Shown in pieces: positions 21,880 through 23,415 of a stretch of DNA of 64,000 nt; the stretch's first letter is position 1, and every line of letters starts with the position of its first letter. Origin of the DNA: Silvimonas iriomotensis (GTDB lineage Bacteria; Pseudomonadota; Gammaproteobacteria; Burkholderiales; Chitinibacteraceae); contig NZ_BMLX01000001.1 in NCBI RefSeq assembly GCF_014645535.1, positions 489,169 through 553,168 of the forward strand, in the 5' to 3' direction. The notes beneath the pieces were generated by a model, which was not told the DNA's origin, searched no databases, and saw nothing but the letters and a program-made list of their open reading frames with translations. The translations under genes and the position numbers were made by a program.

Positions 21880-22200
21880 GGAGCCGGAACGGCTCCGTTC
21901 TCTGGCGAGAACCCGTTTTGTTAGCGCCTGCGGCGCGGTGGTTTTGATACCGGGGGTGCCCGGAGCACGGTACTTTTCTTTGGATCGCCAAAGAAAAGTA
22001 CCCAAAAGAAAGGCGACCCCTGCGACTGCGCCCCTTCGGGGTTCCCTGTGCTTCTCGCAAGGCGCGGCTGGCTACGGGAACTCGCTTCGCTCAGACACCC
22101 CTCCGCCGAAACCCCGCGCCTTGCTGCGATGCTCGGCGCAGTCAAAGGGGCCCAACGTCAAAGGCAACGGCAACCCCGAAAATCAACGGCAACGGCAACC

Positions 22201-22254
22201 AACACCAACACCAACACCAACACCAACACCAACACCAACACCAACACCAACACC
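22201..22254. repeat. Hexanucleotide tandem repeat, AACACC x 9
   Basis: Nine perfect copies of AACACC lie just inside the first forward arm of composite element 1, preceded by degenerate GGCAAC units. Such tracts are prone to slippage, so the copy number is likely to vary between strains. Confidence 0.95.
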
Positions 22255-22282
22255 AAAACAAGGTCACCCGAGTATAGATTTT

Positions 22283-22318
22283 GTAGGGTGGATTTGGAGC
22301 GGAGCGACAATCCACCAT
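22283..22318. repeat. GGTGGATT/AATCCACC palindrome
   Basis: GGTGGATT (22287-22294) and AATCCACC (22309-22316) are inverted around a 14-base loop. A near-identical copy starts at 22693 with the same loop sequence. Confidence 0.7.
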
Positions 22319-22329
22319 AGCGGTGTGTG

Positions 22330-22600
22330 TTAGCGCCTGACGGCGCGGTTGTTTTACATGTCGGGGGTTGCCCGACAGCAAGGCACTTTCTTTTGGGTCG
22401 CCAAAAGAAAGTACCCAAAGAAAAGGCGACCCCTGCGACTGCGCCCTTCGGGTTCCCTGCGCTTCTCGCAAAGTCCGGCTGGCTCCAGGGAACTCGGGCT
22501 AAAGCCCTCAAACACCCTTACGCCGAAACCCCGGACTTCGCTGCGATGCTCGGCGCAGTCAAAGGGGCCCAACGTCAAAAGCAACAGCAACCCCGAAAAT
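22330..22600. repeat. Second forward arm of composite element 1
   Basis: This is a diverged direct copy of 21921-22195. It repeats, in order, TTAGCGCCTG, the ACTTTC/GAAAGT hairpin, GGCGACCCCTGCGACTGCGCC, TTCTCGCAA, GCCGAAACCCC and GATGCTCGGCGCAGTCAAAG. As in the first copy, a hexamer tract begins directly after it. Confidence 0.8.
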
Positions 22601-22654
22601 CAACGGCAACGGCAACGGCAACGGCAACGGCAACGGCAACGGCAACGGCAACGG
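22601..22654. repeat. Hexanucleotide tandem repeat, CAACGG x 9
   Basis: Nine perfect copies of CAACGG follow the second forward arm. The position relative to the arm and the copy number equal those of the AACACC tract, but the unit differs. Confidence 0.95.
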
Positions 22655-22692
22655 CAATCAACACTAGCGCCAGGTCATTGGGTGCAGGTTTT

Positions 22693-22762
22693 GTAGGGTG
22701 GATTTGGAGCGGAGCGACAATCCACTATCGCAACGGTGGATTGCTTCGCGAATCCACCCTAC
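22693..22762. repeat. Paired GTAGGGTGGATT inverted repeat
   Basis: GTAGGGTGGATT (22693-22704) and AATCCACCCTAC (22751-22762) are perfect 12-bp inverted arms. Inner copies AATCCACT and GGTGGATT lie between them, so the unit can form two small hairpins or one long one. Confidence 0.75.
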
Positions 22763-22797
22763 GGGTTTGCAAGAATGATTGGCTTACCCCGCCACTT

Positions 22798-22932
22798 CGT
22801 CATTCCGGACCTCGGCGGCTCCCTTGGCCGGAATCCAGTCCGCAGCCCAACGGGCTGCTTTCCGTGGCCTCGTGCTTTCCTCCTAGAGCCTGCATGCATC
22901 GCAGCTGGATTCCGGCCTTCGCCGGAATGACG
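22798..22932. repeat. Paired GTCATTCC element (two inverted dRS3-like palindromes)
   Basis: CGTCATTCCGG at the left and its inverse CCGGAATGACG at the right bound a 135-bp unit. Each end carries its own ATTCC...GGAAT palindrome followed or preceded by CCAG/CTGG. The core has CCGCAGCCCAACGGGCTGC. The same unit, diverged, lies at 47432-47580 in composite element 2. The size, terminal inversion and lack of coding sequence are MITE-like. Confidence 0.75.
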
Positions 22933-22957
22933 AGTCAGTGGGATGCGTGTTGAATTT

Positions 22958-22987
22958 GCCACTGCCACTGCCACTGCCACTGCCACT
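22958..22987. repeat. Hexanucleotide tandem repeat, GCCACT x 5
   Basis: Five perfect GCCACT units follow the paired GTCATTCC element. Confidence 0.9.
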
Positions 22988-23025
22988 TTCACCACTACTA
23001 CTGAGACTGGGTCCGCGCCAGTGTT

Positions 23026-23067
23026 GTTGTCGTTGTCGTTGTCGTTGTCGTTGTCGTTGTCGTTGTC
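23026..23067. repeat. Hexanucleotide tandem repeat, GTTGTC x 7
   Basis: Seven perfect GTTGTC units. Read on the other strand this is GACAAC, so the tracts on the right side keep the purine-C-AAC-like pattern of the left tracts, but inverted. Confidence 0.95.
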
Positions 23068-23097
23068 GTTGCTTTGGCTGTTGGTTTAGGTTTCGCA

Positions 23098-23127
23098 GTT
23101 GCAGTTGCAGTTGCAGTTGCAGTTGCA
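23098..23127. repeat. Hexanucleotide tandem repeat, GTTGCA x 5
   Basis: Five perfect GTTGCA units sit just inside the inverted right arm of the element. On the reverse strand the unit is TGCAAC, the same as the 13-copy tract of composite element 2. Confidence 0.95.
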
Positions 23128-23415
23128 GTTGCTTTTGACTTTCCTCCCCCATTAAAGCCCAGCGCCGAGGGCGTGGAGGGAGACCCATGGCTCCCGACCA
23201 ACCGAGGGAAGCCCGGAGGGCCGCAGGGCTGGGGTCGCCTTTCTTTGGTTACTTTCTTTGGCGAAGCAAAGAAAGTAACGTGCTCCGGCCACCGCCGGTA
23301 TCAAAACGCCTTTAAACCCGCGCCGCAAGGCGCTAACAGCGGTTCAATGCCCCCCTGGCGCCCCTAAAGCCAGGGAACCCCCCAGACGAATTTGCTTCAG
23401 GCTTCGCCCATCCCC

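Follow-up and report, generated by a model that had tools for sequence, protein, structure and literature searches.

Does the composite repeat at 21919-23338 of this stretch of DNA, which recurs in shorter form some 25 kb away, belong to a family of non-coding elements that move or are copied as a unit, as an earlier note made from the letters alone had proposed, and what governs the direction in which its copies lie? The window, by which we mean the whole stretch of 64,000 nucleotides analysed here, is C1:489169-553168 of a 15-contig, 4.59-Mb Silvimonas genome (G000; Neisseriales, Chitinibacteraceae). Dozens of copies of the element sit between genes in this soil bacterium.

The composite element and its family

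The first element runs from a left end, TGTTAGCGCC, at 21919 to a right end, GGCGCTAACA, at 23338. The genes on either side converge on it; one is an outer-membrane efflux gene and the other a cupredoxin-like gene. Its parts follow in the order L arm, hexamers, GTAG palindrome, L arm, hexamers, GTAG palindromes, facing CGTC palindromes, hexamers and inverted R arm; L arm 2 and the R arm form an inner composite of 1011 nt (22328-23338). The R arm shares its outer part (head and hairpin) with the L arms and differs from them in its inner part. The architecture that the earlier note had described is real, in that the ends, two forward arms, one inverted arm, inner hexamer tracts and paired GTCATTCC palindromes could all be located, and to these we add GTAG palindromes at 22283, 22693 and 22736 and a further CGTC palindrome at 21849. 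The second element, which had been said to keep the same order with fewer parts, indeed has one L arm, a CAACTG tract, a CGTC palindrome pair, hexamers and an R arm, in that order, and is again flanked by convergent genes (a LUD-domain gene and an acetyltransferase gene). In the list below, arm coordinates are those of profile matches, except for the R arm of the first element.

First element, window coordinates
21849-21876, plus strand: CGTC-tagged palindrome just outside the element, with a 20-base ATTCC-N10-GGAAT frame as in neisserial dRS3
21919-21928, plus strand: left end TGTTAGCGCC, first half of the GCGCC/GGCGC end hairpin (a T precedes the profile match in 65 of 66 arms)
21920-22149, plus strand: L arm 1, structured (C1:511088-511317), with a hairpin at 21969-22002
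22200-22259, plus strand: CAACAC hexamer tract
22283-22315, plus strand: GTAG-tagged palindrome
22329-22566, plus strand: L arm 2, with a hairpin at 22382-22415
22601-22660, plus strand: CAACGG hexamer tract
22693-22725, plus strand: GTAG-tagged palindrome
22736-22762, minus strand: GTAG-tagged palindrome, inverted
22798-22838, plus strand: CGTC-tagged palindrome GTCATTCC, first member of the facing pair
22905-22932, minus strand: CGTC-tagged palindrome GTCATTCC, second member of the facing pair
23024-23071, minus strand: hexamer tract, CAACGA on the minus strand
23096-23137, minus strand: hexamer tract, CAACTG on the minus strand
23139-23338, minus strand: R arm (the profile match covers 23189-23336)

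Second element, window coordinates
47006-47859, plus strand: whole composite, 854 nt, with the right end GGCGCTAA
47007-47245, plus strand: L arm (C1:536175-536413)
47248-47349, plus strand: hexamer tract, mainly CAACTG
47432-47459, plus strand: CGTC-tagged palindrome
47539-47580, minus strand: CGTC-tagged partner palindrome
47601-47661, minus strand: two hexamer tracts, CAANNN on the minus strand
47713-47859, minus strand: R arm (C1:536881-537027)

We note that a lone CGTC palindrome lies at 40867-40894, away from both elements, and that a dRS3-like 20-base frame is present in the palindromes at 21853-21872, 22909-22928, 40871-40890 and 47436-47455. By the account in PMC3898611, as far as available to us, a dRS3 subtype in meningococci is the target of a filamentous phage.

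The search against its own genome that the earlier note had called for, with the arm at 22330-22600 as query, returned at least 40 near full-length matches (E at most 4.3e-68) and five short ones, with 40 of 102 candidates scored; copies are 81-93% identical to the query arm. A 27-base arm core with up to three mismatches matched 53 times genome-wide and its reversed pattern not once; both searches thus gave far more than chance would. L-arm and R-arm profiles were run on 1.58 Mb (34% of the genome, mostly stretches picked for earlier matches), where counting L arms scoring above 150 and R arms scoring above 80, and leaving out weaker matches, gave 66 full L arms and 33 R arms. Of the 66 L arms, 58 have a CAANNN tract less than about one arm length behind them (at most 150 nt away) and 34 a CGTC palindrome at most 450 nt behind. 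REP palindromes and hexamers occupy the same gaps as the arms.

Whether the parts travel together is a matter on which the evidence divides. An L arm lies upstream of, and facing, 21 of the 33 R arms, so that the order recurs across a dispersed family. Composites are 515-1065 nt long in the 20 of 21 that could be measured (the right end of one was unrecognised); all 20 start with TGTTAG(C/T)GCC, and 15 end in GGCGCTAACA and the other five in ..GCTAA, giving terminal inverted repeats like those of a MITE. On the other side, 12 R arms and 45 of the 66 L arms have no partner, and the palindromes are of known REP types that are also found apart. The target-site duplication expected of a MITE is absent from the 20 measured composites (summed match of 6 bp, compared with 5.8 bp in shuffles). 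No clean insertion junction was seen among the filled and empty site alignments listed, because whole gaps are replaced. A side observation concerns C3:495370-495863, where two truncated heads with CGTC palindromes stand in tandem before a full L arm, which suggests stepwise local duplication of head and palindrome.

We rejected a protein-coding element: the ten open reading frames that cross the two elements had no family at the curated cut-off in Pfam or NCBIfam, and none of the genes placed by a codon-based gene caller shared more than 60 bases with an arm. With the order recurring at other loci and no gene demonstrated in the element, the observation of the earlier note is confirmed, including its dispersed and apparently non-coding character, while its interpretation as a unit that moves or is copied is partly supported. 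A chromosomal structural element, which the note offered as an alternative, is a possible reading. A scan with the L-arm core pattern over one genome per species in 84,980 species, which may leave out records of the window's own genome, gave 31 stretches; Silvimonas terrae accounts for 27 of these and S. amylolytica for 4. A search among plasmids for relatives of the arm gave no match.

In an alignment of 46 arms, 30 from G000 and 16 from other genomes including other genera, the L arm of about 235 nt folds into five helices. Both-sided changes occur in 23 of the 33 pairs and amount to 174 cells, whereas shuffles give 48.7 and sliding the partners gives 14 to 31; the totals refer to cells rather than events and are inflated by relatedness among copies. 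A covariance model of the arm core retained only 11 pairs. Of the two halves of L arm 2, each folded as single-stranded DNA, the outer does better than 199 of 200 shuffles (z -4.0), and the inner is unremarkable against shuffles (z -0.9). G-U pairs make up 7 of 1384 paired cells when one possibly spurious pair, which reads G-U in 44 of the 46 arms, is excluded; the corresponding figure for tRNA stems (ten genes of the same genome) is 13 of 213. Such scarcity is fitting for a pairing kept at the DNA level.

Orientation of the arms and replication

The direction of the fork was taken from GC skew and dif. A candidate dif site at C1:918988 is a perfect match to what we take to be the dif consensus; the GC skew of 20-kb samples flips there, with positive values in all 9 samples to the left and in three of the four window pieces, and negative values in all 10 to the right (the last of these covering 7 kb). 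On the remaining contigs fork direction comes from GC skew, which is weak on C4. The dnaA gene, at C8:101945, is away from any skew flip and so does not place oriC of G000. The skew also changes near the start of C4, and the origin may be elsewhere than at dnaA, possibly on that contig.

Read 5' to 3', 62 of the 66 L arms point with the fork (p = 2e-14), as do 54 of 57 when C4 is excluded, 49 of the 53 genome-wide core matches and 20 of the 21 composites; 59 of the 66 agree in sign with the masked skew taken up to 10 kb from each arm. For partnerless R arms the count is 7 of 12, and among predicted genes the leading-strand share is 631 of 1160 (54%). Other parts are less polarised (with the fork and against it, 69 and 32 for CGTC palindromes, 30 and 14 for GTAG palindromes, and 45 and 23 for CAACNN tracts), as expected if these ride with the arms. 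Four arms point against the fork. One of them, C2:167844, belongs to a whole reversed composite that has the same slot and orientation in S. amylolytica, and another, C3:320509, occupies the R position behind another L arm.

The polarity is independent of genes. By gap type, with contexts that depend on a simple codon-based gene caller, all 22 L arms in convergent gaps and both of those in divergent gaps follow the fork, as do 18 of 21 in tandem leading-strand gaps and 20 of 21 in tandem lagging-strand ones. Gene direction cannot decide in convergent gaps, and in tandem lagging-strand gaps the 20 arms oppose the genes and follow the fork; we therefore rejected gene direction as the cause. Strand composition was likewise rejected, the oriented L arms having a GC skew of -0.015. 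These counts bear on an RNA element, be it a terminator, a stabiliser or a small RNA, that transcription would have put in place. The structured arm and its TTCG-type loops would suit RNA too, and loci are enriched in convergent gaps (22 of 76, compared with 187 of 1128 adjacent gene pairs), but an orientation that ignores genes and the scarcity of G-U pairs tell against it, and Rfam gave no match at the curated score, the single weak one (E 0.17) lying within the element. We consider an RNA element improbable.

In two Silvimonas species arm matches end some 380 kb before dif. In G000 there is no core match from C1:536252 to C1:1434098, an interval that spans dif, within which other searches found one L fragment (1316213) and two R arms (1221884, 303 kb from dif, and 1373055). 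G041, a complete Silvimonas genome with dif at 7.9 kb and a different arm subtype, has 0 of its 40 scored copies within 376 kb of dif. The chance of a dif-centred gap is 6e-5 in G000 and 7e-4 in G041, for a width picked once the gaps had been seen. In G000, the seven 20-kb blocks sampled at up to 382 kb from dif held no arm, CGTC palindrome, GTAGGGTGG palindrome or hexamer tract, whereas 44 blocks elsewhere, some of them drawn from contigs known to carry arms, held 24 L arms, 34 CGTC palindromes, 14 GTAGGGTGG palindromes and 23 hexamer tracts; motif GTAGCCCGGATG showed the opposite trend (1 near dif, 0 in the 44 blocks). The gap in G000 thus seems to cover several repeat classes, not arms alone.

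Polarity is strong in two related species and moderate in a third, and is not family-wide. In S. terrae, where arms were located via the core pattern (score above 125), 28 of 30 agree with the local skew. At all 14 slots compared, the arm points the same way in the window's species as in S. terrae, in a hand-made list that excludes slots with no full S. terrae arm or with one flank only; with slots and orientation shared, S. terrae is a partial replicate and not an independent sample of insertions. Six L arms occur in one of these two species only, the matched gap of the other lacking the arm; all six point with the fork, and they may have been gained by one species or lost from the other.

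C2:454776, C3:495632 and C6:41917: L arms in the window's species only
C3:275578, C10:172275 and C12:67735: L arms in S. terrae only

In G041, 32 of 40 scored copies point with the fork (p = 2e-4), a count drawn from 66 candidates with three short matches dropped and the partner arms of facing pairs included; the origin was assumed to be opposite dif, and placing it at 1.9-2.5 Mb gives 28-32 of 40. S. amylolytica may lack the polarity, as 2 of its 5 arms agree with local skew and the arm is reversed relative to the window's species at two of four compared slots. In its stretch L235 the neighbouring slots 2041-2536 and 6940-7500 both carry arms of opposite direction to the window's species. For G038, a complete genome from a different genus, a hand count that drops the weaker arm of each facing pair puts 8 of 14 L-like arms with the fork. 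Arm orientations in G039 and G024 looked mixed, judged with no skew reference. In G017, where the 11-pair model did not tell L and R arms apart, three composites only were clear, and judged by the closest sample of clear skew all three point with the fork.

Sequences of the arms group by species. A tree of 96 arms, many of whose forks are weak, needs 10 label changes for three species, compared with 27 in shuffles, and 11 of the compared slot pairs have both their arms in it, in no case as sisters. Since slot and orientation stay while sequences group by species, we infer homogenisation within species, for which gene conversion is the simplest reading. Exchange among copies could also have produced the polarity by purging: inverted copies on one replichore would recombine, the resulting inversions would be harmful, and co-directed copies would persist. 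Purging would yield co-direction within a replichore, and the copies do seem to exchange sequence. They are short, however, and no closer to the query arm than the identities given above; partnerless R arms are repeated too but unpolarised; and every composite holds inverted heads side by side. We regard purging as the least probable of the readings considered here.

Readings of the fork polarity

What has to be accounted for is a family with a recurring order, covarying hairpins, intergenic placement, an orientation that follows the fork independently of genes, a gap around dif, and arms that group by species. The account towards which we lean, tentatively and as something a little short of probable, is a past burst of replication-coupled insertion into the lagging-strand template, with later homogenisation by gene conversion. 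With a fork moving from the L arm towards the R arm, the strand that reads as the L arm would be the lagging-strand template; single-stranded behind the fork, it would fold into the arm hairpins, and copies would have entered the chromosome through the exposed template, much as IS200/IS605 elements do by peel and paste. Gene conversion would then have homogenised the copies in place, keeping site and orientation. In favour of insertion are the fork counts in G000, S. terrae and G041, the six arms confined to one species, and the covariation and scarcity of G-U pairs in the hairpins. The lack of a target duplication or a clean junction counts against it, though insertion of IS200/IS605 elements is not known to make such a duplication. 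The inserting enzyme would have no visible candidate now, or would have been lost: a search for Y1 transposases gave no match in G000, G040 and G042 and two weak ones in G041, and a Y1 transposase of the window's own genome was accordingly rejected as mobiliser. Avoidance of the terminus by arm matches, the unpolarised arms of S. amylolytica and G038, the 7 of 12 partnerless R arms and the excluded pair that reads G-U in most arms all speak against insertion, and the slots shared with S. terrae reduce the weight of that species as a second sample.

A related reading, possible though doubtful, takes the L arm as a strand-specific element of single-stranded DNA that folds as lagging-strand template and that either was inserted there by a replication-coupled route other than those of IS200/IS605 and Tn7 or has a use there, for instance in initiating or restarting synthesis on a single strand, over most of the chromosome but not within about 380 kb either side of dif.

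The main rival to insertion is selection for a strand-specific role of the arms at the fork. It would explain a polarity near 94% that is independent of genes, arm hairpins that are almost wholly Watson-Crick, an orientation kept at every compared S. terrae slot although none of the 11 slot pairs in the tree are sisters, and the lack of arm matches around dif in both G000 and G041. Selection of this kind fits less well with the against-fork composite at C2:167844, which is kept in S. amylolytica, with slots that vary among species, with the G038 arms, and with a dif gap that extends to CGTC and GTAGGGTGG palindromes in the sampled blocks and is thus not specific to arms. We judge it unlikely. 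KOPS, AIMS and Chi are short polar chromosomal motifs with a known binding protein; we know of no protein for the L or R arms.

Discussions of small intergenic repeats mostly treat them as parasites or as hairpins of RNA that owe their placement to transcription. The present element is large and apparently non-coding, and it follows replication almost perfectly, strongly so in two species, with no regard to gene direction. Its L arms offer a natural system in which to test, by counting, whether short repeats get into genomes by way of the single-stranded lagging-strand template, are a candidate strand-specific site at the bacterial fork, and, where polarity holds, could mark fork direction in draft assemblies.

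Comparison with known repeat systems

The inner palindromes have close counterparts. As described in the part of PMC3733652 available to us, REPs of the CGTC super-family have that tag, a stem starting AT and a CCA tail, which the GTCATTCC palindromes fit, and the GTAGGGTGGATT palindromes look like the GTAG type; both window elements contain the palindromes of a CGTC/GTAG REP mosaic. REPs, by the same description, resemble the present elements in being intergenic, in forming facing pairs and in being few in divergent gaps (here 3 of 76 loci). The difference is that palindromes make up only the inner parts here, and that the L and R arms are several times longer, the multi-hairpin L arm being far from the basic REP unit, a palindrome of 20-40 bp. 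Replication polarity is not mentioned in that part of the description.

These likenesses raise the possibility of ordinary REPIN- or BIME-like repeats mobilised by a REP-associated tyrosine transposase (RAYT), with polarity as a by-product. In Pseudomonas fluorescens, according to what we have of PMC3116915, REPINs are REP doublets that spread as mobile units and are linked to RAYTs, and some of their tandem arrays have opposite orientations on the chromosome's two sides, orientation being noted for a few arrays only. The tagged palindromes inside the elements, the intergenic placement and a Y1 match in 26 of 43 genomes of the family would agree with RAYT mobilisation. Set against it are the length of the arm and the lack of a Y1_Tnp match in three of four Silvimonas genomes and in G013, G015, G016 and G017, which have 16-22 arm matches each; in the available text of PMC3733652, moreover, CGTC repeats are tabled without association to a transposase gene. 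RAYT mobilisation holds as little promise, in our judgement, as an RNA element.

NIMEs, which belong to the same order, Neisseriales, are mosaic intergenic arrays of 20-bp dRS3 palindromes, ATTCCC(N8)GGGAAT, and longer RS repeats (PMC3898611), and several palindromes here have the same 20-base frame. That description, as far as it is available, does not mention a covarying 235-nt arm, hexamer tracts or a fork-directed orientation.

For insertion through the lagging-strand template the nearest model is IS200/IS605, whose orientation follows replication by way of that single-stranded template (PMC5371812) and whose members IS608 and ISDra2 have subterminal structures that are recognised (PMC5371812, PMC6006769). 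The arms share the orientation trait in G000, S. terrae and G041, but not in S. amylolytica. They differ in having no Y1 transposase in G000 and in avoiding the terminus: in the part of PMC5371812 at hand, replication sets the orientation of both IS608 and Tn7 (through TnsE), and both favour termination regions.

In the literature searched, mostly open-access, no account was found of the arm, the full layout or such a polarity, and five arm sequence strings were absent from the open-access paper texts searched. The pneumococcal BOX, RUP and SPRITE repeats (PMC3049150) are likewise interspersed, intergenic and enriched between convergent genes, but their leading-strand share of 60.8-63.3%, in the account available to us, mirrors that of genes, whereas 94% of L arms and 54% of genes follow the fork in G000. 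As judged from sequence comparison, the palindromes belong to known REP types and carry the dRS3 frame, and it is the arm and its fork polarity that would be the new part.
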